From assembly GCA_016783065.1 (NCBI GenBank), contig JADHXI010000008.1, positions 1-43,169 on the forward strand: DNA of 43,169 nt, in the 5' to 3' direction. How positions within the stretch are numbered: the first letter of the stretch is position 1; the number at the start of each line of letters is the position of its first letter. This document shows positions 195 to 40,748 of the stretch, in pieces. The notes below the pieces were generated by a model that made no database searches, was not told where the DNA came from, and worked only from the letters and a program-made list of their open reading frames with translations. The position numbers and the translations under genes were made by a program. The DNA comes from Desulfobacteraceae bacterium (GTDB lineage Bacteria > Desulfobacterota > DSM-4660 > Desulfatiglandales > Desulfatiglandaceae).

Positions 195-836
195 TCATTC
201 CTCCGGAAACCAGGTTTGCATTATTGCTTTGAATTTGTCGAATGCCGGATCAATGCACTTTTTTAAACTCACTCTTTCTGCTAACTGCCTGTAAAGAGAG
301 GCGGATTTTGCTTTCCTGGCAATTCTCAATGCTTCCTCAACGGCTTCTTTTGGGCGATTTGGTTTAGTTTCGTTCGCTTCCCTAAATCCTTGTTCAACCA
401 GCCAGGTTATCAAATCTGGTTGTCTTCCTTTCCACCCTAATACAGCATCCACGTGAGGCGATTCGCTCCAGACCCATACTTCCAGCTCTGGATCAAAAAC
501 GATGGCTGCGGCACGATCTCCCCAGCCATTGACGGATAATTGTTTTTCGACCATCTCCTCCAAATTATCTCTGGATAAATAGTCTTTGCCACATCCTTCC
601 CTGTCGAAAATAACCAGGGCATGTGCATACTGGTTGATGAACGGGCGCAAGAAATTGTGGCTATCCTGAAGGCATCCGGGATCATGCTCAAGGTGCCGAT
701 AAACATCATACTCTCCAGTTGTCAGTTTACGACTTCCAATCGCTCTGTGACGAGAGAGCAGGCCCCTTACGGAGAATTCGATATCTTGATCCGCTACAAG
801 AACAATGAGATCTTTCAGCACCAGATCATCTTTCAT
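195..836 (-). CDS. Small TOPRIM/DUF4276-like protein paired with an AAA ATPase
   Basis: 213 aa ORF with LIVLVADQDIEFSVRGLL and ALVIFDREGCGKD acidic motifs; 4-bp overlap with the upstream ATPase gene. Confidence 0.65.
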   Translation of the reverse strand: MKDDLVLKDLIVLVADQDIEFSVRGLLSRHRAIGSRKLTTGEYDVYRHLEHDPGCLQDSHNFLRPFINQYAHALVIFDREGCGKDYLSRDNLEEMVEKQLSVNGWGDRAAAIVFDPELEVWVWSESPHVDAVLGWKGRQPDLITWLVEQGFREANETKPNRPKEAVEEALRIARKAKSASLYRQLAERVSLKKCIDPAFDKFKAIMQTWFPEE

Positions 837-2086: not shown

Positions 2087-2104
2087 TATTCATTCTCCTT
2101 GGAA

Positions 2105-5100
2105 TCAGACACTTTGTTTGAACAGTTCTTTCTGCCTATCAGCAACGCTCACTCCTCTTGTCTTTAGATGATTGCTTATACTTTCAAGAATGGATCGTTC
2201 CTCGCTTCCTGTGTCTGCCAACTCAATGAGTGCCTGGAGAACCTGATGAAAGGTGTTGTTGCGAAACAGTGCCCGAGCTTCAAGATAATCATCAACTTTG
2301 ACCAGTTCACCCGACTTCCAGAGTTGCATCAGACGATGAACTTGATCTATTAAAGGGATCTCTCGTCGCTGGGCGTTTTTTTCATTGTCTTCCACCGGGA
2401 GAAAAGTCATTTGCGCTGCCTTTTCCTGAGCCTTAGCGCTATCAACAGCAGGGTCATACCCCATACTCTGACGTTTACGCTGTTTCCACTGTTTGAGCCT
2501 CAAAGTGCTCCCCGTTCCCCCGCCCATATCTTCATTCGAAGCTGTCTCTTCATCGGGTTCCGGTGCGTTCTTTCCACCCGTCTTTGCAAGGATATCAAAC
2601 TGATCAACCAGAGCACGATCCGTAAGCCCACAGGAAACAGCATACAGAATACAGGGGCCGGCCGGTGCATCCTTCATCCCAAAATCGTGCCGATGTAGCA
2701 GGTAATAGGTGGTCACATCATCTAACCCGCTTACCTCCTTTGACTCACCGTCATGGGAAAGCACCCGGCCAACAACAAAATCCACAACCATCCGCCGCAC
2801 ATGCCTGAGGAATTCCGACACTTCCATTAATTTACCCGGCTCATTCGCTTTTTTAACGACCGGATGCTTGCTATATGCCTCTAGGGCGGGCCCTGTTGCC
2901 GCCCAGACAAAGTCAGGACCACGAATCCCCGCATCCCAGAAGTCTCGTAATTGTGTTTTGATATTTCCCCGCATTTCTTCGAGGACTTTGTTATCCCAGC
3001 CCGGGTGGGCAGTGTCGGAGCGTTTTTTGCAGACTATCCAGACGGACGATGCCAGAGATGCTGTTGTTATAGCGTTTGTTCGATTCCCACGTTCTGTCTG
3101 AATAGGCCAACTACCATTTACAACGAAGCCAGCTCGAACGATAGCGGAGACTAAGGTTTCCCAAGCATTTGGATATTTATTTGCAAACACCAAAACAAAA
3201 CGACCATTATTTTTTAGCACGGACTTACAGCGAGTAAAAACTTGAGCCATTCCATTTTCATAAGCAAGTTTTGATAGTATCTTGTTGCCATGGTATGCAC
3301 CTGGATCATCTATTAGTTCGCCGTCTTGCTTTTCTCTATCCCAGTTAGGAGATAACTCCCCTTTGAATACTTGACGAATATCATCTGATAAGTCATTTAG
3401 AGATCGCGAAAGCCAAACATAGAAAAAATTCATTAGGTCAGCGTAAGGTATAGCGTCATAATAGGGAGGATCAGTGAACACCAAATCAAACTCTTCAGGT
3501 GATCCTTTAAGTTTAATAGCTGATTGATTAGTGATATTTACCTCATTTGTATCTTTGATGCCTTCTAGTATCGAAGATAAAGCTAAAGCTGACCAGTTTA
3601 AGGAACTGGCATAGCCTCCTGCTGTTTGCGACAAAATGTTAGTTTCACACCAATCCCAAGCCCATGAGAATGCAAAACGAGCAAAGGTCCCTCTTATAGC
3701 CTCAAGTCCAACAATCCAAGTTGCTAAAGAGCTGTTGTAATCGGCGATCTTATCTATGCAAATACTCAGATAAGATGTTAGTGCTTCAACCCATATATCA
3801 TTATACTGACCCTTGAAAATATCATAGCGGGCTTTATGTAATTTAGAAATAAAGGTTGTCAGGCTAAGAAGTTGTCTGAATGAGAATAGGTCGGGCCACT
3901 TTCTGAGACCATATCCTGGTAATTGAGAACCAACTGCTCTATGTCTATCCGGCTTTGGCAGTGGTTCAGATGGAATACCAAATTTGCTGCGATCAACAAA
4001 TTTATTCAAGTTGTATTCAGATTCCTCCGCAATTTTGACTTCAAGACAAGTTGGCAGGCGATATTGTTTTCCCTTTTGCCCATCCACCACCACTGCTGTC
4101 ATGGTAGCCCCGAGCCTTCCACCCTTACCCTCTAAACGTATATCCTCCATAGTCATGATGGATGGACAGCAAGGACATTGAGCTCCAGAGCGTGACATTG
4201 TCCCTGCACCAATTCTCTTGTCATGCTCCCTTCTTTGTGCAGCATTACCGCCGTTTATCGGAACATCATTCTGTATTCCGAATACAACCCCCGTTTTATC
4301 TTTGTTATGTTCCATGGTAAGGAGAACCCGCTTATTGGCTTTTTTACAGAGCCAACGGGTTTTAAGAAGGGGAACGGTTCCACGGCAGTTTTTGCACTTT
4401 ACTGTTCGTGCCCAGAGGTAGGCGACTGTCGGCTTGGCAATCCATCGGGGCTTGGCTTTGTCCTCAAGGTATTTCTCGTCAAACTCGGCGTTGAGGGCAT
4501 CAATATCCGGGGCTCCATCATCTCGCAGTGGAACAAGTTTCATTTTCTTTTTTTTATACTTCTTGCCAATGTTCTTAATCGGTTCAAAATCGGCATAGGT
4601 GGGATAATATTTCGCTAAATCCTTCCTGGCTTGATTGAGCATCCATTTGCCCCATGCACGTACATGCCATGCCAGATCGGCTTCCAGCAAGGGATCTCCA
4701 CCGTGAAAATTTTCAAGTACAAACTGTTTATTTTCTTTAAGCCCCAGTTTTTCAAGCTGTGTGCGCAGCAAAGCCCCTTTGAATCCCTGTGACTTAAAAA
4801 AGGCCTCCATGAAATCACAGTCTTTTAAAATGAAATCGGGAAGAAGCCGTTTTTGGCCTGCAAGCTTTTGAGGATATTCTAAAGTACACTTCAGGATAAA
4901 CCACGCAACAGGGTTTATGTCGATTGAAGTGGCCTCACATCCTAAACGCATTGCTTCAAGTGGAATCGCTCCGCCCCCGGCAAAAGGGTCCAGAACTTTT
5001 GGGGCTCTTCCGCCGTAAGCCTTCTTTATTTCCTCCCGAAACCAGTCGAGGGTTTCCTTGTTCTCTGTCTCCCTTTTCCAGTGGAGGATTCCGCCAATTG

Positions 5101-5392
5101 TTTCCTCCTTGATATTCTCCACGATCTTGCCCGAAGGCATCTTCTTTCTTTCTATTTTTTCAACAACCCTCCCTCCGATTTTTTCCACAAGTTTTTTGCG
5201 TTTTTTGGGATCGCCAGGGTCTGGTAAAAGGGTAGCAATTAATGCAGCGCGGCATGCTGCCAGGGGTCTTCTTGCCGGCCAGATATGCAGCGTTGAAATG
5301 TGCCCATGTCGTACATTCTTCTCATGTACAGAATCCAGTGATGCCTGTTTAAGAGGAAAGGCATGTTCAATTAGGCGGGGTTTGTCATCCAT
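2105..5392 (-). CDS. DUF1156 domain-containing DNA adenine methyltransferase
   Basis: 1095 aa. N-terminal FPLKQASLDSVHEKNVRHGHISTLHIWPARRPLAACRAALIATLLPDP, VLDPFAGGGAIPLEAMRLG SAM motif, FTDPPYYDAIPYADLMNFFYVWL catalytic motif. Confidence 0.93.
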   Translation of the reverse strand: MDDKPRLIEHAFPLKQASLDSVHEKNVRHGHISTLHIWPARRPLAACRAALIATLLPDPGDPKKRKKLVEKIGGRVVEKIERKKMPSGKIVENIKEETIGGILHWKRETENKETLDWFREEIKKAYGGRAPKVLDPFAGGGAIPLEAMRLGCEATSIDINPVAWFILKCTLEYPQKLAGQKRLLPDFILKDCDFMEAFFKSQGFKGALLRTQLEKLGLKENKQFVLENFHGGDPLLEADLAWHVRAWGKWMLNQARKDLAKYYPTYADFEPIKNIGKKYKKKKMKLVPLRDDGAPDIDALNAEFDEKYLEDKAKPRWIAKPTVAYLWARTVKCKNCRGTVPLLKTRWLCKKANKRVLLTMEHNKDKTGVVFGIQNDVPINGGNAAQRREHDKRIGAGTMSRSGAQCPCCPSIMTMEDIRLEGKGGRLGATMTAVVVDGQKGKQYRLPTCLEVKIAEESEYNLNKFVDRSKFGIPSEPLPKPDRHRAVGSQLPGYGLRKWPDLFSFRQLLSLTTFISKLHKARYDIFKGQYNDIWVEALTSYLSICIDKIADYNSSLATWIVGLEAIRGTFARFAFSWAWDWCETNILSQTAGGYASSLNWSALALSSILEGIKDTNEVNITNQSAIKLKGSPEEFDLVFTDPPYYDAIPYADLMNFFYVWLSRSLNDLSDDIRQVFKGELSPNWDREKQDGELIDDPGAYHGNKILSKLAYENGMAQVFTRCKSVLKNNGRFVLVFANKYPNAWETLVSAIVRAGFVVNGSWPIQTERGNRTNAITTASLASSVWIVCKKRSDTAHPGWDNKVLEEMRGNIKTQLRDFWDAGIRGPDFVWAATGPALEAYSKHPVVKKANEPGKLMEVSEFLRHVRRMVVDFVVGRVLSHDGESKEVSGLDDVTTYYLLHRHDFGMKDAPAGPCILYAVSCGLTDRALVDQFDILAKTGGKNAPEPDEETASNEDMGGGTGSTLRLKQWKQRKRQSMGYDPAVDSAKAQEKAAQMTFLPVEDNEKNAQRREIPLIDQVHRLMQLWKSGELVKVDDYLEARALFRNNTFHQVLQALIELADTGSEERSILESISNHLKTRGVSVADRQKELFKQSV

Positions 5393-5418
5393 ACTCTACA
5401 CTCTCACAATACATTCTT

Positions 5419-5472
5419 CCACGGAATACACGGAAGATAAAAAAATTCTGTGTCTTTCCGTTTATTCCGTGG
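5419..5472. repeat. Short inverted repeat of CACGGAA units (family C, copy 1)
   Basis: CCACGGAATACACGGAA (5419-5435) versus TTCCGTTTATTCCGTGG (5456-5472): 17-bp arms, one mismatch. Confidence 0.85.
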
Positions 5473-6703
5473 GCTCAATCTTTTTTTCTTTCCACAGCCT
5501 CAGGATAAACCGCTCACCATCCTCGATCAGGTCCGGCTCTGTTCCATTATGCTCCCGCATTCCTTTTATGATCTTGCGGGGGATCCCCATGCCCATATGT
5601 TCCAAATAGCCATAGTCCCTCATGACATCCTTGAGTAACTGGTTCCTCGCAGTGCGGCACCCTACTCGCATTCTCTCTGTTGTAATACCATTATGTAATT
5701 TACCAGGAGATATAACCTCAAGCCGGTCTGAATAAATGGAAAGTTCAATATCCGTACCTGAAAGCAGGTAATCCCGGTGAACCACTGCGTTCACAATGGC
5801 TTCGCGAATTACTTCCTCGGGATAATCATGCCGCTCTGTACGAATGGTTCCGTCTTTTAAGGATGCATTAACCCCTGTATTGCGTCTGATGAAGTAAACG
5901 GCCTGCTCTACCAAACCCGGATCAATGATCTCGATACCATCATCTTTTTGTTGAAAAAGGCCCAGTATAGGTCCTCTCAGTTGAGCTCTCTCAAGGGCGG
6001 CGTAGTCCTTTTCAAGACCCGGGTAGGCTACTGCATCAATTGCGGATTGTGGCAGATAACGGTATGGTTTTTTCCCAAAAAGGAGTAAGCCTGCTAAGGT
6101 GCATGGAGAATAATCCCCTTCATCTCTGAGAATTTCAGTGTTTATAAGCAGACTTCGCAACTCCTTCTCATCCTGAGGCAATTCCTGATTGCGGATGCGT
6201 TTAAAATATTCACGGACTCTTCTGATATCCAAATCGGCAACGGAGGAGCCTCCAACAGGACGGATTTCGAGTCTGAAGGCCCCTCGCTGCTGGAAAAGGC
6301 GCTCTAATTCCTCTTTGCTCGCCTCTCTGCTTTGGCTTCCAACCCGAATATAATATGTGGAATGATTGTTATACCAGACATGGTGAACCGTCCAGCCTAA
6401 ATCCACTCTAACCACGGCCACATTCTTGCCTGGTTCAACATCGCGGATAATCTCGAAGTAAGGGACAATCTCCGGACGGATTTTGTCCCGACATGTTGTC
6501 ATAACCCACTCCTCGATATCTGAACGTGATATGCCGGTAACGGTCCCGTCATCCTCAACACCAAGGAAAACACTACCGCCATCCAGATTGACAAACGCCA
6601 CCAGTTCTTTTGCGAGGCCGCGGTTATCGATGGTATCACGCTTGAATTCAACACCGGAGTTCTCTCCATTTATTAGTATTTCTAAAAATTCGGTTTTAGT
6701 CAT
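5462..6703 (-). CDS. AlbA_2 (Schlafen-type) putative DNA-binding + C-terminal HATPase_c_4-type ATP-binding protein
   Basis: ENSGVEFKRDTIDNRGLAKELVAFVNLDGGSVFLGVEDDGTVTGI and EEVIREAIVNAVVHRDY...SDRLEVISPGKL motifs. Confidence 0.9.
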   Translation of the reverse strand: MTKTEFLEILINGENSGVEFKRDTIDNRGLAKELVAFVNLDGGSVFLGVEDDGTVTGISRSDIEEWVMTTCRDKIRPEIVPYFEIIRDVEPGKNVAVVRVDLGWTVHHVWYNNHSTYYIRVGSQSREASKEELERLFQQRGAFRLEIRPVGGSSVADLDIRRVREYFKRIRNQELPQDEKELRSLLINTEILRDEGDYSPCTLAGLLLFGKKPYRYLPQSAIDAVAYPGLEKDYAALERAQLRGPILGLFQQKDDGIEIIDPGLVEQAVYFIRRNTGVNASLKDGTIRTERHDYPEEVIREAIVNAVVHRDYLLSGTDIELSIYSDRLEVISPGKLHNGITTERMRVGCRTARNQLLKDVMRDYGYLEHMGMGIPRKIIKGMREHNGTEPDLIEDGERFILRLWKEKKIEPTE

Positions 6704-6734
6704 TATTGACCTCCTCAGAATTCATTAGAACTCT

Positions 6735-6810
6735 TACGGAACACACGGAATCACACGGAAACACGGAATAAAGAATTTGGTTTTTCTGTGTCTTTCCGTG
6801 TATTCCGTGG
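6735..6810. repeat. Inverted repeat of tandem CACGGAA units (family C, copy 2)
   Basis: Left ACGGAACACACGGAATCACACGGAAACACGGAAT, right TTTCCGTGTATTCCGTGG (ends 6810). Confidence 0.85.
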
Positions 6811-6812
6811 GC

Positions 6813-9800
6813 TTAGTTTATTCCTGGCTCCCCTGCTGAAAATATCTCGCTTTCGTTGATGACAACCCCTCCCTTCGCCTTCACAATAAGCCTTGAAAAA
6901 GGATCCTGGATCCTTATTAATCTTGGATGAGTACTGGCACAGTTATATACCACGTAGAGCCAATATGTGTCACGGAGATTGCAAGCCTTAACCCATTCAT
7001 TCTCCGAAATGTCAATGTCCCCAACACCGGCGCGACCTTTTACCTCGATATCTCTTTCTTCATTATTTGGACGGATAGATAAGAGATCAAATCCAGGCCA
7101 ATCCAGCAAACCAGCTTCGCGAGCGCGCGAGGGATTTGATACATCCTTCACAACGGCTCCTTCGGCCTCTTCAAAGGACCAGGCAACTTTTACAGCAATA
7201 TCTTCAATGGCATTATCATGTCGTTTTTTATCTTCAGGATCACTTGACGGGACAACAAGCGCATGGACAAGAAATTCTACATGATTAGGCACAATCAATT
7301 CCGGCTCGCGCCTCAATATCGTGATATCCTTTTCCCTCAACTGAGATATCTGTCGCTGGCGTTCTTTGATTTGGGTTAATTCAATTTTTGATTTCGCATC
7401 GCCCGCATGAGCTTTTTTTGAAAGCTCTATCCTGCGTCCTGCAAGTTCGGCCTCCTGGTAATGATATCCACGCCTGACAAAATCTTCGCGTTCCGGCAGT
7501 GTATTGAACAAAACCTGTTTATGCTCTCCGGCAAGACCATGGGCAATTGTTTCAAATGCATAATCCTTTGCACGGTTTATTGCATCATTAACCGTGGCTG
7601 CGAAACGAATGGCAGAGGGCGGTAATCCTTTACTTCCTTTTAAGAGAAGAAGGTATTCCAGAGGACATTCCTCTACCAAATTATCCTGCCCCTGCTTTAA
7701 ACCCGCCAACCGGTATTCAATAATTTCGCTATGCTCAAAAGGCCTGAAGTTTGGATCGGCTTCTCGCTCTATCCTCAATAAGGCCAAGTGAAAGAAATAG
7801 GGCTTTTTTGCATTTGGATCCAGAAAGATTCCGCCTCTCAAGGCATCGTTGCCATACCGTTCGTAAATATGTTCGCATAAAGTATCAAAAATAATTTCGC
7901 CAGGATGCAGAAACACGGCGGCGGCGTTTTCCCGATTTCTATCGACAGTAAAGAGATTTTGAAGCTGGTAGGGATAAGTTTCAATTGCTGGCCAAAGAAA
8001 ATCAAGGGCACCGGCCCGACCTGCTCGAAGAGAGAATATTTCATCCAAATCCCCTTCAATGTTAATATTCAAAATCACGGCTGAATTTTGAACGAATCGA
8101 CGCACATATCCCGGCAAGAGACGACAGTAAATTTCCTGTTCCAGACTATCTCTTAACCTTTTCAATTCTTTGCTGACATCACCACCTTCTCCATAGAGAG
8201 TACGCTCACGTTCCTCTATGGCCTTGATTTGTTCTTTGGTGAGTTTGCCTTCAATAGTCTTCTCAATCTCCTTAGTGCTTTCCCCGGTGACAGCCATTTC
8301 CATGTATTCTTTTATGGAAAGGTCCTCAAAGACCCGACCAATCACATCGAAAACCTTACCCGATTGAAGTTGTTTTCGTATTCTTTCAAGCTTATCGAGC
8401 AAAGTTTTAAGAACACGCCCTTCACGCGTTTTACCGGCAACAAGATTGATGATAATAACAGGATCATGTTTTTGGCCGTAGCGATGGATTCGACCCATCC
8501 GCTGTTCCAGACGAGCAGGATTCCATGGGATATCGTAATTGATCATTATCCAGCAAAACTGAAGATTAATTCCTTCACCCGCTGCGTCAGTAGCCACCAA
8601 ATATCTGGCGCCACCTTCATTATCCGTCTTCCGGAAAAATTCAACCTGGGCGTCGCGCTCCTGATAATCCATGCCGCCGTGAATTTGGGCAACTTTCCCA
8701 GTATATCCCAGGCCTTCCAATCTGCGGACAAGGAAATTGAGCGTATCCCGATGCTCGGTAAATATGATGAATTTTTCATCCCTGTATTTGGGATCAGCGA
8801 GTATCTCTCGCAGTTTTTCAAATTTGGATTCATCTCTTGTTTCGTAGACTTGCCGTGCAAGATCCAGCAGTTCTCTGACTCTCTGGCGTTCTACCTCCAG
8901 TTCTGCCAGGTTGGCCGCAATTAAGCCACCAAGGGCCAGTTCTTCAACGGTGTCGTGCTCTTCTTGCCCTTCTTCCACATGCTCTTCATCCGCTGTCTTG
9001 CTAAAGATTACATCCTCAAGTTCATCCAACCTTCTCTGTTGTGCTGCCAACTGTTCTAATGTGATTTTTCCCGATTCAATATCGGCAATGATCTGTTCAA
9101 GCTTTCCTATACGTCTTTCAAACGAACGTATTAGCGCATATGTAGAGCTTGCCAGCCGTCGCTGGAAGATACTCATTGCGAAGCGGGCAGCCGCACGATT
9201 CAATAACCGAGCCTTATTGTAGTAGGATTGAATATAACGGGTGGTCGCATCATAGAGCGTCTGTTCACTGACCTCACCCTGAGAAAGATCGTAACTTAAA
9301 GTATCGGAAGCGCGATCTGGATAGATGCGGGTCCCGTCATAGTGAACCATTTCCTCTTTGGTTCTTCTAATGAAATGGCGTTTGCGGGCTTCTTTTGGAT
9401 ACGCTGAAAATGCCTCATAGGTGGAGAGAATAGCAGGTTCCAATAAACGCCAGATGCAGTAATAAGGAAAATCCTTTCCCATGTGAGGTGTGGCTGTCAG
9501 CAATAATAGATGGCGAGCACTCCACGGAAGTCTCCATCGCTGCTTATCACTATCAACACCTGCCAACGCACGAGCCAAAAGATACCGGTCTGTCGCACGG
9601 AATGTACCATCCGGATCTTTACGTGCCGAAAGTTTGTGTGACTCATCAAAAATTACTAAATCGTAAGGCTCGACCCCGGCTTCCTGGAGCCTGCTAAACA
9701 TCCGTTCACCAGCTAAAGTATCAATACTAACAATCAACAGATCACTTTGTTCTTCCTTGAACGGATTGCCCGAACGGGCATCACTGCCCTTAACAACCCG

Positions 9801-10436
9801 GAAGTGGATATTAAAAAGCTGCCGCAATTCACGTTGCCAATTTCCGATCAGACCAGCTGGAGGAAGTATTATAACACGGCGCAATAATCGTCGTGCGAGC
9901 ATCTCACGAATATATAGACCAGCCATGATGGTTTTTCCGGCTCCCGCATCATCTGCAAGCAAGAACCGAAGTCGGGGTTGCGGCAACATATACTCATAAA
10001 CTGCGATTCTCTGGTGTGGCAAAGGATCTATTCGGGAGATTTCTGTTGCAAATGCAGGGTTGTAGAGGTGTCCATATTTTAATCGGTGGCCTTCAGCTAC
10101 CAACCGGACAATTTCTGGCACAGTCGTAAAATTTGGCAAATCTCGCTTTTTTGGGCCCGTTTCGTAGGTTGTTGCTGGTTCTTTGATAGTCATGGGAGGT
10201 TCAAAATCATTACTTAATGCATCCAACCCATATCGCTCCGCACGCAAAATCTGCTGCCAGGCAAGACGGGATGGCTCAGATTGTCCATTTTCCCAACGAT
10301 TCACTGTCGCAAAAGAAACCCCCATGAGCTCGGCCATTCGGGTCTGGGTTAGCTCATATTTGATCCTTAAAACCCTTACTCGATCTGGAATGTCAGCCGG
10401 CACCTGTCTATTAATCATATTAGCTTTCTTCATCAT
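6813..10436 (-). CDS. XRE-type HTH fused to SNF2-family helicase with C-terminal DUF3883-like domain (DrmD-like)
   Basis: N-terminal HTH VRVLRIKYELTQTRMAELMGVSFATVNRWENGQSEPS; helicase motifs LADDAGAGKTIMAGLY, LVIFDESHKL, LLTATPHMG, ATDAAGEGINLQ, RLEQRMGRIHRYGQ; C-terminal FDLLSIRPNNEERDIEVKGRAG...WVKACNLRDTYWLYVV. Confidence 0.92.
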   Translation of the reverse strand: MMKKANMINRQVPADIPDRVRVLRIKYELTQTRMAELMGVSFATVNRWENGQSEPSRLAWQQILRAERYGLDALSNDFEPPMTIKEPATTYETGPKKRDLPNFTTVPEIVRLVAEGHRLKYGHLYNPAFATEISRIDPLPHQRIAVYEYMLPQPRLRFLLADDAGAGKTIMAGLYIREMLARRLLRRVIILPPAGLIGNWQRELRQLFNIHFRVVKGSDARSGNPFKEEQSDLLIVSIDTLAGERMFSRLQEAGVEPYDLVIFDESHKLSARKDPDGTFRATDRYLLARALAGVDSDKQRWRLPWSARHLLLLTATPHMGKDFPYYCIWRLLEPAILSTYEAFSAYPKEARKRHFIRRTKEEMVHYDGTRIYPDRASDTLSYDLSQGEVSEQTLYDATTRYIQSYYNKARLLNRAAARFAMSIFQRRLASSTYALIRSFERRIGKLEQIIADIESGKITLEQLAAQQRRLDELEDVIFSKTADEEHVEEGQEEHDTVEELALGGLIAANLAELEVERQRVRELLDLARQVYETRDESKFEKLREILADPKYRDEKFIIFTEHRDTLNFLVRRLEGLGYTGKVAQIHGGMDYQERDAQVEFFRKTDNEGGARYLVATDAAGEGINLQFCWIMINYDIPWNPARLEQRMGRIHRYGQKHDPVIIINLVAGKTREGRVLKTLLDKLERIRKQLQSGKVFDVIGRVFEDLSIKEYMEMAVTGESTKEIEKTIEGKLTKEQIKAIEERERTLYGEGGDVSKELKRLRDSLEQEIYCRLLPGYVRRFVQNSAVILNINIEGDLDEIFSLRAGRAGALDFLWPAIETYPYQLQNLFTVDRNRENAAAVFLHPGEIIFDTLCEHIYERYGNDALRGGIFLDPNAKKPYFFHLALLRIEREADPNFRPFEHSEIIEYRLAGLKQGQDNLVEECPLEYLLLLKGSKGLPPSAIRFAATVNDAINRAKDYAFETIAHGLAGEHKQVLFNTLPEREDFVRRGYHYQEAELAGRRIELSKKAHAGDAKSKIELTQIKERQRQISQLREKDITILRREPELIVPNHVEFLVHALVVPSSDPEDKKRHDNAIEDIAVKVAWSFEEAEGAVVKDVSNPSRAREAGLLDWPGFDLLSIRPNNEERDIEVKGRAGVGDIDISENEWVKACNLRDTYWLYVVYNCASTHPRLIRIQDPFSRLIVKAKGGVVINESEIFSAGEPGIN

Positions 10437-25052: not shown

Positions 25053-27119
25053 TCATGTGATCTTTAATATCTTCTCTCCATCGGCTAAATAGAATTCAAA
25101 TCCAAATACCTCAACCTTGTGGCCATCTCTTTTCCCGACTTTGAAAGGGAGGTTGTTTACCTTGCGGCTGTCAAGCCTCTTCAGGGCCTTGTCCAACTTG
25201 TGGGCTTCCAGCCTCGTTAATTGCAGGTCAAGGAGTTCCCCGGCCCGTTCGTTGTCTTGTTCAAAACCAAACCGGGCAGAGTCCCTGCCATCTTCTTTCC
25301 ATAGTACTGCACAGAGCTTCATCCATTTTATTCTGTTGGGAATGCTGAGGCATTTCATGGTGTGAAAACCGTTTACGAACTTGACCGCGGCAAGGAAGTC
25401 GACAAATATCCGACAGTCTTCTCTAAAAGACCCGGTCACGTCCCTCAACCGCACCTCTTTGTCTCCGTCCCGATCGAGTATTTCCGAATAGGCATTTCGC
25501 CGCGCCTCCGGGGTGAACTCAGCCTGAGCCCGGACAATAAGATCACGGATGGTTCTTCTCACGATCATGTAAAACATTCTGTTGCCAAAGCCAAAAGCCT
25601 CTTCCCTGTCACGATCGGTAAGGGTGGTGTCATATGCTACATGCAGGAGAAAAACTGCAAAGTCATCCAGAAAGGTCAGCGATTCGAGGATCTCACCAGA
25701 TGTCATATCATCTGTCTCAATATATCCTTTTCCCTCAAACGCGCCATCATCCGTTACCGTGACTGGCGGGTTTCTATCAGGCCAGTTCATGCTCTTTCCA
25801 TCCTTGGTCAATAGCCTTACTGAGTCCTCCTCTGCTATCTTGGTGCCGGGGTAGGGGATGGCAGCCGACACGGAAACATGCATCGTGGCAGGATTGTAAG
25901 GCGGGTGATCTCGCAAGAATATGGCCGATCTCAGGATACTCTGCCAATCCTGTCCAGGCAGCCCAATCAACATATAAAAGGTCGTGCTGATTTTGAGCGC
26001 CGCACACCAATCTCTCAACCTGGCTATCTGCTCAAGCGTGATTTTTTTGTCGAGGTTATCCAGGAGTTCCTGATCACCTGTCTCAACGCCGATTTGGATA
26101 AAGGTCAATCCTGCGTTCCTCATCCTCTTCAACAATTCAAGGTCCAGTTGACTGGCCCTTGTTTCCGCCGTCCATTCGAATTTTAACCCCGAGGTTTCTA
26201 TCAGTTGGCAAAGACGATTGATCCTTGATTTTCGATTCAGAAGTGTCTCTTGTACGACGGCGAATCTGCGAAAACCCCTTGCGTGCAGTTTCTTTATCTC
26301 TGCAAATAGGTTGTCGGCGCTTCGTTCTCTTATAAGTCCCTTGTGAACGGCCTTCTGGGCACAAAAAACACAATGATGCGGGCACCCTGATCCTGCGAAG
26401 AGGAAGACAACTTCCTTTTTATTCTTTATCGCGTCCTCAGGATCATCCAGGAAGAGATCCATACTGTCTGACGGGAAAGGGTAATCATCGAGGGAAAGGG
26501 CATGTTTTCGGGATGGATTCAGAATAATCTCCCCGGTCTCTTTTTTGTGGGCTATCCCGGAGACCATTGAAAGGTCACCATCCCCCCAAGTATTTAACCG
26601 CAGCGCAATCTCCGTAAGGGTCTCCACGCCTTCACCGATACACGCCACCTGATAGTCTGATTCCCTGAGATACTCTGCCGGAAGAACCGAGACATGCGGG
26701 CCACCAATAACCCGCAGCGCTTCAGGTGAGATCGCCTTTGCCGCACCAGCCAGTTCATTTGCCTCATCAAGCTGGGCACTGGTGGCTGTGACGCATATCA
26801 TCAGAGGATCAACTCTGTTTTCCCGTATGAACTGATTTAAATATGCTTTGATGGATAGCCTCTTCGGTTTGAGGGAGAGGTTTATTGCCTTGACATCAAA
26901 GGATGGGTAGTCCACCGGGTTTTCCAGGACAGCTTCTTTTCTTCCGGATACGACGGCAAATCTCTGGAGAAATGTTTTGTCTCTCAGGGCACTTGCCAGG
27001 GTACCCAGACTGAGGTAACCCCTGAGCCTGTCTTTTCTCTCATATCTCTCGGATCCCGTGGAGGGATTCACAAAAAGAACAGAAGGGTTCCTCTGTTTCC
27101 ATGAATCTGTCTCGGCCAT
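25053..27119 (-). CDS. B12-binding domain radical SAM protein
   Basis: GGPHVSVLPAEYLRESDYQVACIGEGVETLTEI B12-binding region; GSGCPHHCVFCAQKA (CxxxCxxC). Confidence 0.93.
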   Translation of the reverse strand: MAETDSWKQRNPSVLFVNPSTGSERYERKDRLRGYLSLGTLASALRDKTFLQRFAVVSGRKEAVLENPVDYPSFDVKAINLSLKPKRLSIKAYLNQFIRENRVDPLMICVTATSAQLDEANELAGAAKAISPEALRVIGGPHVSVLPAEYLRESDYQVACIGEGVETLTEIALRLNTWGDGDLSMVSGIAHKKETGEIILNPSRKHALSLDDYPFPSDSMDLFLDDPEDAIKNKKEVVFLFAGSGCPHHCVFCAQKAVHKGLIRERSADNLFAEIKKLHARGFRRFAVVQETLLNRKSRINRLCQLIETSGLKFEWTAETRASQLDLELLKRMRNAGLTFIQIGVETGDQELLDNLDKKITLEQIARLRDWCAALKISTTFYMLIGLPGQDWQSILRSAIFLRDHPPYNPATMHVSVSAAIPYPGTKIAEEDSVRLLTKDGKSMNWPDRNPPVTVTDDGAFEGKGYIETDDMTSGEILESLTFLDDFAVFLLHVAYDTTLTDRDREEAFGFGNRMFYMIVRRTIRDLIVRAQAEFTPEARRNAYSEILDRDGDKEVRLRDVTGSFREDCRIFVDFLAAVKFVNGFHTMKCLSIPNRIKWMKLCAVLWKEDGRDSARFGFEQDNERAGELLDLQLTRLEAHKLDKALKRLDSRKVNNLPFKVGKRDGHKVEVFGFEFYLADGEKILKIT

Positions 27120-33235: not shown

Positions 33236-33844
33236 GTGCAATTCAAAATAGATGACATAGAAGAAATTGCAGCAAAATTCACCACCCAAAGCCCTGGAGT
33301 TGAGAGGCATTTGATACTCTTGAGTGGCTTGCCAGGAGTGGGCAAAACGACTGTCGCTAAGGAACTTGCTCATCAAACGCGCGGGTTGCATTTCGACATT
33401 GACGAGATCAAGAGACTGGTTGTTCCTCAAGATCTTGTGACTGAGGATATAGATCCCCCCGAATACCGTTTCGAGTACTACTCAAAAACAATACGTAGGC
33501 TTCCATCTCTCTTCGCTAAAAGCCCCACCCAAGTTGTGATAATCGACGAAACATTCCATATGCGGTCATTCCGGCATATGTGGAATGAAACCTGCAAGGA
33601 ATTAAACGTAAGAGTGCATTGGATAGAAGCGGTTTGCTGTGATAAACTGGTCAAGGAGCGACTTCGCATTGGGAAGGATAGGGAGAACCACATTTTGTCA
33701 GCAGATGAAGCCTATTCAATATATAGGCTCTTTAAAAAAACGTTCGAGCCAATGGAAGGCCCCTATCAAGTTGTCGATACGGGTAAGGAAATAGTCCCTC
33801 AGGTCGAAAAGATCGTTACGAACATTTCTTGCAGAAGATGTTAG
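33236..33844 (+). CDS. P-loop AAA_33/zeta-toxin-like predicted kinase
   Basis: LILLSGLPGVGKTTVAKELAH Walker A, HFDIDEIKR, VVIIDETFHM, KERLRIGKDREN; GTG start. Confidence 0.8.
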   Translation: MQFKIDDIEEIAAKFTTQSPGVERHLILLSGLPGVGKTTVAKELAHQTRGLHFDIDEIKRLVVPQDLVTEDIDPPEYRFEYYSKTIRRLPSLFAKSPTQVVIIDETFHMRSFRHMWNETCKELNVRVHWIEAVCCDKLVKERLRIGKDRENHILSADEAYSIYRLFKKTFEPMEGPYQVVDTGKEIVPQVEKIVTNISCRRC

Positions 33845-34038
33845 GCCATATAATTGCGAATCCAGAGGGAATTGAAATGGCCACTTTGGAAAAGAAAACA
33901 GGATGGAAATATGACACTATCAGTCAAATTATTCATAGACTGAGGAACCAAGGTAAAGTCAAAAGTAAGCAAAAAGAGGGTCTTCGAGGAAAGGCTTATG
34001 CGGCTGGCAAGAGGCGTTTTCTTTATTTTGAGGCTTAA
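33829..34038 (+). CDS. Small winged-HTH-like protein, overlapping the kinase gene
   Basis: 69 aa, MLGHIIANPEGIEMATLEKKTGWKYDTISQIIHRLRNQGKVKSKQ; overlaps the kinase 3' end. Confidence 0.65.
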   Translation: MQKMLGHIIANPEGIEMATLEKKTGWKYDTISQIIHRLRNQGKVKSKQKEGLRGKAYAAGKRRFLYFEA

Positions 34039-34082
34039 TGTAGTGTTGAAGCTCTTATTTTACAACAATTGATCCGCCAGTC

Positions 34083-34217
34083 TTGCATAATTTTGGCCGA
34101 ATGAAACAGAATGATGATGCAAGCTATCATCGCCTCGAACGGGCTGAAACGACATACAATATGTGGAAATTGGCCCTGAATTGACACCAAGCGAAATCTC
34201 ACTTATACTCAACCCTA
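34083..34217. repeat. Family G direct repeat, copy 1
   Basis: TTGCATAATTTTGGCC...AAACAGAA...GACATACAATATGTGGAAATTGGCCCTGAATTGACACC...ATCTCACTTATACT...CCTAT. Confidence 0.8.
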
Positions 34218-34335
34218 TCAAAAGCGAATTAAGGGAAAGTGGTCATGGGGGTCGCACTGAGGCCCATTGGGAAACTTAATGGATTAGCTGCCGAACCCTA
34301 ACACCTCTGCACCGAGGTTCTAATCTACAATTGTT

Positions 34336-34358
34336 CTGTTCAAATTACGTTCGAACAG
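34336..34358. promoter_or_regulatory. Dyad CTGTTC...GAACAG upstream of the Nif11-like ORF
   Basis: CTGTTCaaattacgttcGAACAG, ~30-50 bp before ATG 34391. Confidence 0.4.
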
Positions 34359-34390
34359 TATAGCTGCTGAGATGGAAAGGGATTAATATT

Positions 34391-34810
34391 ATGTCAATTG
34401 AATCCGCAGAGGCCTTTAGTGAAAGAATGAAGACAGACGAAGAGTTTAGAAATCAGATGATCGCTGCTGAAGACAAGGAGGCTCGGGCCGCCCTCGTGAA
34501 GTCGGGAGGGTTTGATTTTACTGGAGAAGACATATGCAAGGCAATCGGTGAGTTATCGAAGGGGTTGTTGGATGAGCGGAATAGGAAGTGGGTACAATGG
34601 GTGTGTATGATGGGGGGAGGTAGGGGAGAAGGTGTTCGAGGGCGCGAGCGTGTATCCTTGTTAGAGCGGGTGTGGCTCCATCCCCACTGCTGTGGGAGGT
34701 TGGTAACGAATTGCGATCAAGGTGTGATTAGGCATACCGATCTGAGGCGGGGAAAACCCACGCCTGCGAAAGGATTGATTCCGCTGATTCGCAATTGGTT
34801 GAGGACATAG
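34391..34810 (+). CDS. Nif11-like leader peptide family ORF (candidate RiPP precursor; C-terminus may be degenerate)
   Basis: MSIESAEAFSERMKTDEEFRNQMIAAEDKEARAALVKSGGFDFTGEDICKAIGELS matches the Nif11 leader pattern; cysteine-containing tail WVCMMGGGRGEG...HPHCCGRLVTNCDQG. Confidence 0.75.
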   Translation: MSIESAEAFSERMKTDEEFRNQMIAAEDKEARAALVKSGGFDFTGEDICKAIGELSKGLLDERNRKWVQWVCMMGGGRGEGVRGRERVSLLERVWLHPHCCGRLVTNCDQGVIRHTDLRRGKPTPAKGLIPLIRNWLRT

Positions 34811-34831
34811 ACCACAATTGGTTTGGTATTG

Positions 34832-34968
34832 TTGCATAGTTTTGGCCAATATAAAACAGAACCTTCATGCAAGAATACATTCGTCGGAGGGCGTTAAAAA
34901 GACATACAGTATATGGAAATCGTCCCTGAACTGACACCAAACCACATCTCGCTTATACTGCGACCTAT
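34832..34968. repeat. Family G direct repeat, copy 2
   Basis: TTGCATAGTTTTGGCC...AAACAGAA...GACATACAGTATATGGAAATCGTCCCTGAACTGACACC...ATCTCGCTTATACT...CCTAT; aligns with 34083-34217. Confidence 0.8.
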
Positions 34969-35092
34969 AAGAGAGATAACCGAACACGCCACTCAAAAAT
35001 AAGGCGAATAAAGGGGGTGATAAAGCCAATTAAATCTTGGATACGAATTTTTTTTTAAAAAATCCCATGAACCCTAAACAGGAGGCACAAAC

Positions 35093-36736
35093 ATGGAACA
35101 ATTGATGAAATCAAAACGGATTTTTCCACTTAAGCTGGTCACCTTTTCATTGATAGCAGGCATATGCCTTGGTTTTGCGGCTATGGGATTCGCCGGTGAA
35201 TCGATTGTGGGCGAGGACGTGTACAAATACAGCGACAAAAACGCGGTATATGGAGGGACCCTTCGTACGCAGGAGCCTGCTATTAGGTCCCTCGATCCGC
35301 ACATGGAGACCGCTGCAGCAACAACCGATTTCGCCAACTTAGTTTACAACGGCCTACTTCGTCTGACACCGGATATGCAGGGTAAAGAGCTCGATCTGGC
35401 AGAAAGCTGGAGACAGATAGACGATCTTACCTATGAATTCAAGCTCCGAAAAGGCGTTCGTTTTCACGACATCCCTCCGGTCAACGGCCGTGAACTAACA
35501 TCAGCAGACGTGAAGTACAGCATCGAACGTATATCAGGCAAGTACGGGAAAAAGTCCAATTTTAAGCATCGTTACTACTTCGAGGATAAGTTGGCCTCTA
35601 TCGAAACACCTGATAAATATACCATCATCTTCAAGACAAAAAAGCCGTACGCACCTTTTATCAACTATATCTCATCTCCGTGGACCATGATCGTACCCAG
35701 GGAAGCAGTTGAAAAATGGGGCAATCTCAAGACGAAGGCCATCGGGTCCGGCCCGTTCATGCTGAAGGAATACGTAAAGGGTTCCCACGTGAGCTTTGTA
35801 AAGCACCCGAAATTTTTCAAGAAAGGCCTGCCATACCTTGATGCCGTCAATATTAAATTTATGCCCAGGCCTGCAACGTTTCTGTCGGCGTTTTTGGCTG
35901 GAAAACTGGATGTTTCAGGTCTTTATTTTTTCCAGGTTCCGACCATAAAAAAGAAAGACCTTGAAGCCAGAGTTTATGAAAGGCCGGGGGCCTACACGAG
36001 GATCGTCAGGACCCCGCCCTGGATCGAGGGCAAAATCCCCCTCAAGCCTCCCTTTGATGACAAGAGGGTCAGACAGGCCATCGCCCATTCTATCGATAAA
36101 GTGAAATTACTCAAGCTGGCCTGGGGCGGTGCAGGTCAAGAGCAGATCGGCCCTGTGCCCCGGCCGTATTACCCATGGGGATTAGGCGAGGAAGATCAGT
36201 GGAAATACAATCCCGAAAAGGCCAAAAAGCTTCTGGCCGAAGCAGGGTACCCCAATGGGTTTTCATGTGAGCTCATGACCTGGAACCTTGCATACATGAC
36301 CCGCCCGGCCCAGGTAATCCAGCAAATGCTCAAGGAGGTCGGCATTAATGTCAATATAAACGCCCTGGAGTTTGCCCAATACTTTAACAAAACTTACAGG
36401 TATCGATACGAGATGGCCTTTCACATTACGACCGCCGGGGTTGACCCTGAAGAGTGGCTTGTCCCTTACTTTGGCAAGTTGGACAAGTCCACATATTACA
36501 AGTGGAGCAACCATGAACTCTGGGATATGATCGAGAAACAGGCACACATTATGGACAAGGAAAAGCGCGTGGCCTATATTAAGGAGATTCAACGAAAGGT
36601 CATGGATGAGGCCATGAGCCAATCCATGTTTACGACAAGGCGTTACACCGCCCTCAAACCCTATGTCCATGAGAAGTTCTACATGCATGAAGGTCAGCGA
36701 CGAATGTATGAATTTACATGGATGGAAAAACACTAA
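35093..36736 (+). CDS. ABC transporter substrate-binding protein, family 5 (peptide/opine/nickel type)
   Basis: Signal-like N-terminus; YGGTLRTQEPAIRSLDPH, LTSADVKYSIERI, RVRQAIAHSIDKVKLLKLAWGGAG. Confidence 0.93.
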   Translation: MEQLMKSKRIFPLKLVTFSLIAGICLGFAAMGFAGESIVGEDVYKYSDKNAVYGGTLRTQEPAIRSLDPHMETAAATTDFANLVYNGLLRLTPDMQGKELDLAESWRQIDDLTYEFKLRKGVRFHDIPPVNGRELTSADVKYSIERISGKYGKKSNFKHRYYFEDKLASIETPDKYTIIFKTKKPYAPFINYISSPWTMIVPREAVEKWGNLKTKAIGSGPFMLKEYVKGSHVSFVKHPKFFKKGLPYLDAVNIKFMPRPATFLSAFLAGKLDVSGLYFFQVPTIKKKDLEARVYERPGAYTRIVRTPPWIEGKIPLKPPFDDKRVRQAIAHSIDKVKLLKLAWGGAGQEQIGPVPRPYYPWGLGEEDQWKYNPEKAKKLLAEAGYPNGFSCELMTWNLAYMTRPAQVIQQMLKEVGINVNINALEFAQYFNKTYRYRYEMAFHITTAGVDPEEWLVPYFGKLDKSTYYKWSNHELWDMIEKQAHIMDKEKRVAYIKEIQRKVMDEAMSQSMFTTRRYTALKPYVHEKFYMHEGQRRMYEFTWMEKH

Positions 36737-36808: not shown

Positions 36809-37753
36809 ATGAGAAAATATGTCATCAGACGGGTTTTGCTGCTCGTTCCTACCGTTATTTTGCTCTCATTTCTGGTCTTTGGCATCATACGCCTGATACC
36901 CGGTGATGCCGTTGAATTGATGGTATCCGAGGGGGGGTTCGCAGACGATACAAAAGAACTCAGGGAGATGTTGGGGCTGGATCAGCCTATTTTTGTACAA
37001 TACTTTAAATATATGAAAGGGGTATTTAAGGGCGACCTGGGGATCTCTCTCTGGAGCGGGGAACCCGTCTTGTCAGAGATTTCCAGGCGGCTGCCTATCA
37101 GCTTTGAACTGGCCTTAATGGCTCTTATATGGACTTTCCTCCTGGGCATACCCATCGGTGTAATTTCGGCTCTAAAACAGGATACAGGAACGGATTACGC
37201 TTTGCGATCGTTCGCAATTGCGGGTCTTTCCATACCCGGATTTTGGATCGCGACCCTGATTCTGGTTTTTGGCGCCATCTGGTTCAAGTGGGTTCCACCC
37301 ATGGACTACATACCGTTCAGGGAAGACCCCATTCAAAATCTTTCGCAACTCGTGGTGCCTTCCCTTGTCCTTTCGTTGGCCCTGTCAGCAGGCATTATGA
37401 GGATGACCAGGACCATGATGCTGGAGGTGATGCGAGAGGACTACATACGAACGGCTAGGGCCAAGGGACTCACGGGCTGGACTGTGGTCATCCGCCATTC
37501 CTTGAAAAACGCCATGATCCCGGTTGTCAGCATCATGGGGATACAACTCGCCTTTCTGGTGGGCGGAACCGTCATCATGGAGAGTATTTTTGTCCTTCCA
37601 GGTATGGGAAAATATCTGCTTGACGCCATCACATGGCGGGACTATCCGGTAATACAGGGAATCAATCTCTTCATTTGCACTTTGATCATTACGATCAACC
37701 TTTGTGTAGATTTATTGTATGGATTTTTGGATCCCAGAATTCGATATAGGTAG
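36809..37753 (+). CDS. ABC transporter permease (DppB-like)
   Basis: FGIIRLIPGDAVELM, EDYIRTARAKGLTGWTVVIRHSLKNAMIPVVSIMG. Confidence 0.93.
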   Translation: MRKYVIRRVLLLVPTVILLSFLVFGIIRLIPGDAVELMVSEGGFADDTKELREMLGLDQPIFVQYFKYMKGVFKGDLGISLWSGEPVLSEISRRLPISFELALMALIWTFLLGIPIGVISALKQDTGTDYALRSFAIAGLSIPGFWIATLILVFGAIWFKWVPPMDYIPFREDPIQNLSQLVVPSLVLSLALSAGIMRMTRTMMLEVMREDYIRTARAKGLTGWTVVIRHSLKNAMIPVVSIMGIQLAFLVGGTVIMESIFVLPGMGKYLLDAITWRDYPVIQGINLFICTLIITINLCVDLLYGFLDPRIRYR

Positions 37754-37789
37754 AACAAATCTCAAGAACCTCCTTTACGGACATAAAAC

Positions 37790-38728
37790 ATGAACGAAGC
37801 AGTAAAATTGAATCAAAGTGAACGTTTAGAATTTCAACTCGAGCAGATCGAACCTCCGAAAAGGCACCATTGGATTTTGGATCTTTTTATCCAGTTGGTG
37901 AAGACCAAGCCCCTTGGTGCCTTTGGGGGCCTCCTGGTACTTTGCATGGTAATAACTGCTGTCCTGGCTCCTGTCATCGCCCCATATGGGCCTGACGAAA
38001 TTCATGGGGAAAAGGTTGTCCAGCCGCCCAGCAGTACCTTTGTGTTCGGCACTGACGCACTGGCCCGGGACGTCTTTAGCCGCATTGTATATGGGGCCAG
38101 GGTCTCTTTAATGGTCGGGTTCGGCGCAGTGGGATTGAGCATTCTTCTTTCTACGATAATTGGCATTCTTTCCGGCTACATCGGAGGGTTCTTCGATACC
38201 GTGATCCAGAGATGCGTGGACGCAATAATGTCCTTCCCATGGTTGATTATCATGCTTACGGTCATGGCCATTTTGGGTCCGGGGATAAGGAATGTCATCC
38301 TGGCGCTGGCCCTGGCTGGATTTGCCAGCGGTTCTCGGGTTGTCCGAGGTGCCGTCCTGACTATCAAGGAGAGCGAGTATGTCATGGCCGCCAAGGCTAT
38401 CGGGTGCAAACAGTGGATGGTCATTTTCAGGCACATCCTCCCGAACGTAGCCGCTCCTATCATCGTTCTTGGAACGCTGGGATTGGGAAATGCTATCCTG
38501 GCCGAAGCCGCGCTCAGCTTTCTCGGTTTTGGGGTTCCGCCTCCAGCGCCCTCATTGGGGAGGATGCTCAGTGGAGACGGTCTGGACTATATGCTTCAAG
38601 CCCCTGGTCTGGCTGTCTTCCCCGGGCTGGCCATCAGTATCACCGTTTTTGGATTCAACATGCTGGGCGACGCCCTCAGGGATCTCCTGGATCCCAAACT
38701 GACAGGTGGGTTGGGGGGCAGGAATTAA
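37790..38728 (+). CDS. ABC transporter permease (DppC-like)
   Basis: FGTDALARDVFSRIVYGARVSLMVG, EYVMAAKAIGCKQWMVIFRHILPNVAAPIIV. Confidence 0.93.
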   Translation: MNEAVKLNQSERLEFQLEQIEPPKRHHWILDLFIQLVKTKPLGAFGGLLVLCMVITAVLAPVIAPYGPDEIHGEKVVQPPSSTFVFGTDALARDVFSRIVYGARVSLMVGFGAVGLSILLSTIIGILSGYIGGFFDTVIQRCVDAIMSFPWLIIMLTVMAILGPGIRNVILALALAGFASGSRVVRGAVLTIKESEYVMAAKAIGCKQWMVIFRHILPNVAAPIIVLGTLGLGNAILAEAALSFLGFGVPPPAPSLGRMLSGDGLDYMLQAPGLAVFPGLAISITVFGFNMLGDALRDLLDPKLTGGLGGRN

Positions 38729-38769
38729 CCAATCTTTAATAAATTTATGATCTTAGCCTATGAAAAAAG

Positions 38770-39762
38770 ATGAACCCTGTGAAGGAAAATAGGACGCCGA
38801 TTTTGGAAGTCGACGGCCTGTCGGTCAGGTTTTTTACTCGTGATGGTGAGTTGAACGCTGTACGCGACGTTTCCTTCAACCTCTATCCCGGCGAATCACT
38901 CGGCGTGGTTGGAGAGAGCGGTTGTGGTAAGTCCGTCACGGCCCTCTCCCTCATGAAGCTGATACCCATTCCGCCCGGAAATCTGGAAGCACGCAGACTC
39001 CACTTCAATGGAGTGAATCTACTCCGAGCCTCAGAGAAAAAAATGAGGGACATCCGCGGAAACCGGATCTCCATGGTCTTTCAAGATCCTATGACATCGT
39101 TGAACCCTGTCCTGACTGTCTGGAAACAGATGGGCGAGATTCTTGAACTGCACATGGGGCTCAAGGGTGGGGAGCTGAAGGACCGCTGCATTGAATTGTT
39201 GGGGATGGTAGGTATCTCTGAACCACACATGCGCTTGAAGTCCTATCCTCATCAGCTAAGTGGGGGAATGAGGCAACGGGTCATGATCGCCATGGCCCTT
39301 TCTTGTAATCCCAGCATACTTCTGGCTGATGAACCCACGACGGCACTGGATGTCACCATTCAGGATCAGATCCTCCGTCTTATCCAATCTCTGGCCAAGG
39401 ACCTGGAGGCGGCCACAATCCTGATCACCCACAACTTTGGCGCTGTGGCTGGGATGACGGATCGTATCATGGTTATGTATGCCGGAAAGATCGTTGAGAC
39501 GGCCCCCACAATGGAGCTCTTTCACAATCCCCTTCATCCCTATACCCGGGGTCTCCTTCAATCCATTCCTCGGGCGGATAGGGAGACCCAGGAAAGGCTT
39601 TTTTCCATTGAGGGGATGCCTCCCGACCTGTTGCGCACACGTATCCAGGGTTGCAGTTTTGCACCGAGATGCGAATTTACAACGCAAGACTGTACGATGC
39701 ATCTGCCTCCCTTAGAGAAGGTAGTGCAAGATCATCATGTCTCATGCTGGAAGGCGAAATGA
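38770..39762 (+). CDS. ABC transporter ATP-binding protein (DppD-like)
   Basis: [55 protein letters not shown]. Confidence 0.95.
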
Positions 39763-40748
39763 TGGAAGCCAGAGACAACGGGTTTCTAAATGTCAAAGAC
39801 CTGAAAGTTCATTTTTCCTTGAAGGCCGGAGCGCTTCCGGGAGAGAAACGAGTCGCAATTAAGGCGGTCGATGGGGTCAACCTCAGGCTGAATGAAGGAG
39901 AGACCCTCGGGCTCGTGGGAGAGAGTGGGTGCGGAAAGTCAACCACGGCAAAGGGAATTCTTCAGCTCGAAAGACCGACAAGCGGACAGATATTCTTTCG
40001 AAACGAGGATCTCTGTCTCTTGAAAGGGGAGGCCCTGAGAAAGAAACGCAAGCACATTCAGATGATCTTCCAGGATCCCTATGCCTGTCTCAATCCTCGC
40101 ATGACCGTGCGAAAGATCATCGAGGAGCCCATGTGGGTTCATGGCGTGCACAAGAACGCTGGCGAAAGAAAGGAGAGGGTCCTGGAGATGATGCGATATG
40201 TTGGGCTGAATCCCACGGACGTGCATCGCTATCCCCATGAGTTCAGCGGAGGCCAAAGGCAGCGCATTGGTGTAGCCAGGGCACTGGCAGTGCGTCCGGA
40301 ATTCATTGTTTGCGACGAGCCGGTGTCGGCTCTGGATGTATCAATACAGGCCCAGATCATCAATCTGCTGGAGGACCTCAGGGAACAATTTCACCTGTCT
40401 TATCTCTTTATCTCTCACGACCTATCGGTGGTCAGGCACATCTCTCACCGTGTGGCCGTGATGTATTTGGGTGTTGTCGTGGAACTTGCTGAGAAAAATG
40501 AGCTGTATTCCCACCCGGTACACCCCTATACCAAGGCACTGCTTTCATCCATTCCCATCCCGGATCCAGCCGCCGAGGCAAAAAGGACCAGTTTAGCCCT
40601 CGAAGGCGAACCCCCCAGCCCCATTAGACCGCCCAAAGGCTGTAAGTTTCATCCGAGGTGCTCGAGAAGGGAAAAGATCTGCTCTGAGGCTGAGCCCCTA
40701 TGGCAAGAGATTGCTTCAGGACATTTTTCTTTGTGTCATCATCTTTGA
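39759..40748 (+). CDS. ABC transporter ATP-binding protein (DppF-like)
   Basis: [53 protein letters not shown]; start set to ATG 39759 (ATGA overlap). Confidence 0.95.
   Translation: MMEARDNGFLNVKDLKVHFSLKAGALPGEKRVAIKAVDGVNLRLNEGETLGLVGESGCGKSTTAKGILQLERPTSGQIFFRNEDLCLLKGEALRKKRKHIQMIFQDPYACLNPRMTVRKIIEEPMWVHGVHKNAGERKERVLEMMRYVGLNPTDVHRYPHEFSGGQRQRIGVARALAVRPEFIVCDEPVSALDVSIQAQIINLLEDLREQFHLSYLFISHDLSVVRHISHRVAVMYLGVVVELAEKNELYSHPVHPYTKALLSSIPIPDPAAEAKRTSLALEGEPPSPIRPPKGCKFHPRCSRREKICSEAEPLWQEIASGHFSLCHHL

Follow-up and report, generated by a model that had tools for sequence, protein, structure and literature searches.

Repeats flanking a Nif11-like peptide gene in a Desulfobacteraceae bacterium as probable orphan promoters of a class III cyclase family

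It is still an open question how foreign or rearranged bacterial genes come by functional promoters in the course of evolution. In horizontal regulatory transfer, the upstream region of a gene is swapped for a non-homologous regulatory region, and such switched regions are associated with changed expression (PMC5890482). Promoter capture by deletion, as well as deletion-born fusions, has been reported (PMC12803068), and promoters are also borne by small repeats such as the Correia/NEMIS elements, most of which have terminal inverted repeats and target duplications (PMC2229807, PMC2649163). Here, we describe a pair of repeats in a 43,169-nucleotide stretch of a Desulfobacteraceae genome (the window; GCA_016783065.1, contig JADHXI010000008.1, positions 1 to 43,169), which are probably orphan copies of a sigma-70 promoter derived from a double-zinc-ribbon (DZR) class III adenylate/guanylate cyclase family with an ATPase region, multicopy in this order and preceded by that promoter in related sediment bacteria, and which would now transcribe new downstream genes. 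The direct support for this comprises homology, promoter architecture, association with the cyclase in several genera and three families, and a series of progressive cyclase loss. A literature search returned no report of this promoter family, although its partial coverage makes this weak evidence.

The original prediction placed the two repeats, A (34083-34217) and B (34832-34968), on either side of a Nif11-like ORF and aligned them along their full length. Both points are borne out: 103 of 138 aligned columns are identical, with few single-nucleotide gaps, and the best local score of 111 compares with a mean of 16.6 (sd 2.3, maximum 30) for 2000 dinucleotide shuffles. The best-conserved part spans 72 nt at 81% identity. 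The homology starts approximately 20 nt to the left of those limits, at about 34062 and 34811, and its right end lies just past the -10 hexamers. The features of the locus are as follows:

34062..34228, + strand: repeat A, putative orphan of the cyclase promoter unit, extended upstream in a genus-specific manner (R1 profile match at 34136-34228, training-set score 85.9 bits)
34082..34123, + strand: dyad near A, CTTGCATAAT / ATGATGCAAG, an inverted repeat of 10 nt at 90%
34152..34164, + strand: upstream motif ACATACAATATGT, its centre some 58 nt ahead of the predicted transcription start, a candidate activator site (second information peak, about -25 to -11 before the -35)
34181..34209, + strand: predicted promoter A, -35 TTGACA (34181-34186), 17-nt spacer, -10 TATACT (34204-34209), 11 of 12 consensus matches
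34391..34810, + strand: Nif11-leader peptide ORF of 139 codons, downstream of promoter A (PF07862, 2.9e-15; TIGR03798 leader_Nif11, 3.1e-16)
34811..34975, + strand: repeat B, putative second orphan copy of the promoter unit (alignment to A; R1 match at 34884-34975, training-set score 74 bits)
34826..34878, + strand: dyad of copy B, GTATTGTTGCAT / ATGCAAGAATAC, 12 nt at 92%
34931..34959, + strand: predicted promoter B, -35 CTGACA (34931-34936), 17-nt spacer, -10 TATACT (34954-34959), 10 of 12 consensus matches
35093..36736, + strand: solute-binding protein, first gene of an ABC operon downstream of promoter B (PF00496, 5.5e-80), with AGGAGG just before the ATG
36809..40748, + strand: two permeases (BPD_transp_1 in each) and two ATPases (ABC_tran and oligo_HPY in each) of the same apparent operon, in ORFs 36809-37753, 37790-38728, 38770-39762 and 39651-40748 (last start uncertain)

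R1 is a 100-column sequence profile trained on 14 copies of the element, A and B among them, so that their own scores are those of training rows. In the alignment, the left arm of the A dyad is common only to copy B and to C66, a copy elsewhere in the same genome. More generally, the dyads upstream of both promoters (CTTGCAT...ATGCAAG) are shared most fully with C66, and only their right arm is kept in other genera.

The Nif11 domain occupies residues 1-47 of the ORF and scores above the curated cut-offs of both models (56.7 bits against 23.8 for PF07862 and 59.4 against 32.3 for TIGR03798); the residues after about position 70 are doubtful. The ORF is 40% identical over 70 aa to one in the congener G002. 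No RiPP maturase was recognised among the larger window ORFs that were read. A radical-SAM-like protein is encoded at 25053-27119, 7 kb from the Nif11 ORF, and in G057 (C279, L086, 1501-3028) a complete-looking Nif11 leader peptide lies beside an opposite-strand gene resembling radical SAM/SPASM peptide maturases. The operon behind repeat B encodes an Opp/Dpp-type transporter. Just upstream of repeat A, a P-loop kinase-like ORF (33236-34038; AAA_33, 2.1e-10) overlaps a 69-aa ORF with weak MarR-like similarity, and the two could be a small two-gene module. An apparent anti-phage defence cluster occupies 195-10436 on the minus strand, with a helicase (HmaA profile, 5.5e-159), a methyltransferase (HmaB, 1.8e-113), an AAA ATPase whose best matches are HEC-01A and mad3, and two further ORFs.

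Each repeat had been credited with a coding-like stretch, VEIGPELTPSEISLILNPI / MEIVPELTPNHISLILRPI, as though both were decayed copies of the start of another gene. Both peptide strings are present as written; however, a promoter scan finds TTGACA-17-TATACT in the stretch underlying that of A and CTGACA-17-TATACT in that underlying the one of B, i.e., hexamers near TTGACA/TATAAT at a spacing within 16-18 nt, as in sigma-70 promoters. Transcription would start near 34216 from promoter A and is predicted near 34966 for promoter B. Across 32 copies of the element, the two hexamers are nearly invariant and their spacing is conserved; information peaks at three places, namely AATTGACAC, CTC..TATACTC and a block further upstream near ACAAnAT.TGG, and the distance from the ACATACAATATGT region to the promoter is gap-free across genera. 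Over the 29 full copies, the three codon positions carry 1.12, 1.15 and 1.18 bits, the third being as conserved as the others, and two of these copies have in-frame stops in the translated stretch. Given the missing codon-position signal and the stops, nothing suggests selection on a protein, and a coding reading of the repeat is rejected: the quoted peptide is the -35, spacer and -10 read in frame. On the sequence, then, the "peptide" shared by A and B is a translated, non-coding, near-consensus sigma-70 promoter. What survives of the decayed-gene claim is that the repeats are homologous to the region in front of a gene family, with a promoter in place of a coding start. Rfam gave no match at gathering score in the window, nor any up to E 0.5 at 34000-35120. 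A caution follows from A and B, namely that a conserved "peptide" inside repeats can be a translated promoter.

The locus had also been likened to a small cassette or amplified precursor locus. That the repeats are decayed coding starts, or a cassette amplifying the Nif11 precursor, now seems hardly credible. The frame is open in most copies, as this would predict, but the codon-position pattern and the stops speak against it, and conservation is highest precisely over the -35 and the -10. The cassette reading fails because the Nif11 segment has no repeat elsewhere in the host genome, being single-copy, while the promoter recurs without the Nif11 ORF; the other copies stand singly before unrelated genes, so A and B do not form opposite ends of a single unit, and only the promoter is repeated.

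A search of the repeat against the rest of the genome, which had been proposed together with the prediction, returned three further copies outside the window (C66, C124 and C169; E 5e-22 to 2e-8 for repeat A), and DNA matches were also obtained in relatives. With R1, 41 copies were found, spread over 11 of the 46 family genomes, five of them in the host and 19 in the relative G012; order-wide, at a stricter cut-off, 17 of 85 genomes were positive. These genomes are single representatives, mostly fragmented assemblies (that of the host is 72% complete), and contig ends truncate several downstream regions. For 21 of 29 copies the nearest neighbour lies in the same genome, against 9.4 expected, which fits multiplication within lineages. 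Among 85,000 species genomes, the exact promoter pattern occurs in 11 contigs, all titled Deltaproteobacteria, Desulfobacterales, Desulfobacteraceae or Desulfatiglandales.

The intact form of the unit is seen in C124 of the host and in G001, G003, G006, G012, G013, G014, G053, G084 and G040. Here a leader of roughly 75 nt, which carries the ribosome-binding site CTGGAGGgC, lies between the promoter and a gene starting MKC(P/S/A)KCQ or similar. Inspection of the downstream genes, another suggestion made with the prediction, thus placed a cyclase start directly behind the element in C124 and its relatives. The C124 product combines DZR (3.4e-12), Guanylate_cyc (1.3e-18) and AAA_16 ATPase (7.5e-20) domains, split over two ORFs, and its intact relatives are about 1,100-1,200 aa long. 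This gene (L006, 5695-8487) appears broken such that the second ORF is fused to an amidohydrolase-like tail, which could reflect an assembly artefact or a pseudogene. G084 and G040 belong to two other families of the order, and, because the association thus spans three families in total, the link with the cyclase is most likely ancestral. Repeats A and B share homology with the stretch that immediately precedes the cyclase genes in other genomes; R2, a model of the intact leaders and the first 21 codons only, reaches at best 3 bits in 33800-35300. Lacking both leader and cyclase start, they are called orphan copies.

Searched against all copies, R2 resolves intermediates between these extremes. 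Intact copies score 94-110 bits; C66 still reaches 73 bits, although its seventh codon is a stop, and its decayed cyclase start is followed by a 138-aa protein without a Pfam match (L005, 9471-9887). C169, at 31.8 bits, directly precedes an aldo/keto reductase gene. Partial or diverged cyclase starts are kept by the G012 copies C566, C787a, C476, C601, C610, C756b and C787b, the cyclase assignment of individual G012 copies resting on the first codons. In C756a, C712 and C808 only the leader persists, ending near the start codon, and that of C756a now precedes a 2Fe-2S/cyclase protein, which makes this recipient a cyclase as well, one with a different architecture. Part of the leader is left in C1 and G017_C454, and C123 is a leader relic without a recognisable promoter. 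This graded series, with its variable right ends, fits cyclase genes having been eroded or replaced while the promoter stayed in place, rather than a fixed-end element. In the window, R2 finds no leader remnant behind A or B, and no cyclase remnant was found, the sole tblastn match being the ABC ATPase; the loss of a cyclase at this site is accordingly deduced from the other copies.

The same series bears on whether the repeats might belong to a MITE- or Correia-like element, small, mobile and non-autonomous, which carries a promoter and is spread by a transposase. The many dispersed copies in a single genome (19 in G012) would suit such an element, as would the similar left limit and nearby dyad shared by A, B and C66. 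Yet no terminal inverted repeats span the unit, which has only internal dyads, its left limits differ between genera, and its right ends range from the spacer to deep inside the cyclase gene. Further, the element has no match in plasmids, and its exact promoter pattern is found in no contig of the viral collection. Mobility of this kind is hence quite improbable. In the ORF and plasmid comparisons, no transposase was noted among the ORFs between or beside A and B, and the repeats were not found to be the ends of a known insertion sequence, the outcome that had been named as fatal to the original prediction.

Turning to the genes that now lie downstream, the recipients vary by genome and include an FMN oxidoreductase, a thioesterase, an alpha/beta hydrolase, a carbamoyltransferase, flavodoxin-like and HAD-like proteins, an aldo/keto reductase and others. 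In 18 of the 22 orphans with at least 36 bits and readable downstream sequence, the nearest downstream gene is on the same strand (one-sided p = 0.002; orientation tallied by hand from ORF calls), and among 19 orphans the pairwise identity reaches 98% in AATTGACAC and 93% in the -10, compared with 58% for the spacer, 52% for the downstream part and 40% for the far-upstream part; both the orientation and the hexamer figures are biased, since R1, being trained on intact hexamers, under-samples decayed promoters. Matches below about 36 bits (G044, G001 C90, G053 C254, G060, G066, G025, G063 and G067) were omitted from the orphan counts because the core -35/-10 could match by chance. Subject to the same detection bias, the hexamer identity and the orientation argue against the copies being inert fossils, i.e., remains of promoters with no further relevance to the adjacent genes. 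Some copies, such as C756b and C787a of G012, have no close same-strand gene downstream, as fossils might, but overall we regard this reading as unlikely.

A different account would see a regulon, in which one transcription factor controls all copies and their similarity is kept by selection on its binding site rather than by descent from cyclase loci. The motif about 58 nt before the predicted start, conserved at fixed spacing in several genera, is consistent with this, as is the mostly metabolic or transport character of the recipients. A binding site leaves unexplained, however, the decayed cyclase leaders and codons behind many orphans, and no recipient gene family was seen recurring between genomes. 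G012 has an ortholog of the C169 recipient (71% identical) without the element, and, at a cut-off of E<=1e-60, none of the other 45 genomes of the family yields a match to the window solute-binding protein; together, these two observations favour recent capture over an old regulon. No cyclase was found ahead of the C169 recipient's orthologs, nor was any relative found in which one still precedes the same recipient gene. In G012 C85 (L120), short simple repeats of GTCGTTGTCGTAATCG type lie upstream of the aldo/keto reductase ortholog. As the sole explanation a regulon appears rather unlikely, though it may well coexist with orphan promoters.

The orphan-promoter reading envisages that copies of the cyclase gene multiplied in the lineage, that most were then lost by deletion or decay with the promoter left behind, and that the leftover promoter would transcribe whatever gene lies downstream. 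Promoter A would thus serve the Nif11-leader peptide ORF, whose start codon lies about 175 nt from the predicted transcription start; the ABC transport operon would be served by promoter B, over a distance of about 127 nt. Were a regulator to bind the upstream motif that the copies share, the regulation of the cyclase genes might, more speculatively, pass to the recipients as well. Tentatively, and as a less likely possibility, the expanding and collapsing cyclase family could act as a continuing source of ready-made promoters, through which unrelated and newly acquired genes would time and again come under a single common promoter, with no mobile element involved; were the motif to bind a cyclic-nucleotide-responsive regulator, these genes would form one regulon. 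Since a single promoter can be traced from its source gene, by way of remnants of decreasing completeness, to promoter-only copies before unrelated genes, capture events can be counted and put to the test.

Among known systems, the Nif11-like leader family (TIGR03798 / PF07862) accommodates the window ORF, which is well above both curated cut-offs; it differs in that no maturase was recognised among the window ORFs read and that the part after about residue 70 is unsupported. Like the Correia/NEMIS repeats, the element is dispersed, measures about 100-150 bp and bears promoter sequences, but it has neither a common right end nor terminal repeats. As in horizontal regulatory transfer (PMC5890482), the upstream region of a gene gives way to a non-homologous regulatory sequence; in that process, strains swap alleles at a single locus, whereas here the promoter of a multigene family is dispersed over many loci and retains a trace of its source gene. 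As in deletion-driven capture (PMC12803068), an existing upstream part would be joined by deletion to a new downstream gene, but here the event is recurrent, always involves the same gene family and promoter, and mostly yields a promoter or leader rather than a fusion ORF. Precedents thus exist for upstream-region switching, deletion-driven promoter capture and promoter-bearing small repeats; the present case is unusual in that the promoter of a single family is used repeatedly and that its source can still be recognised.
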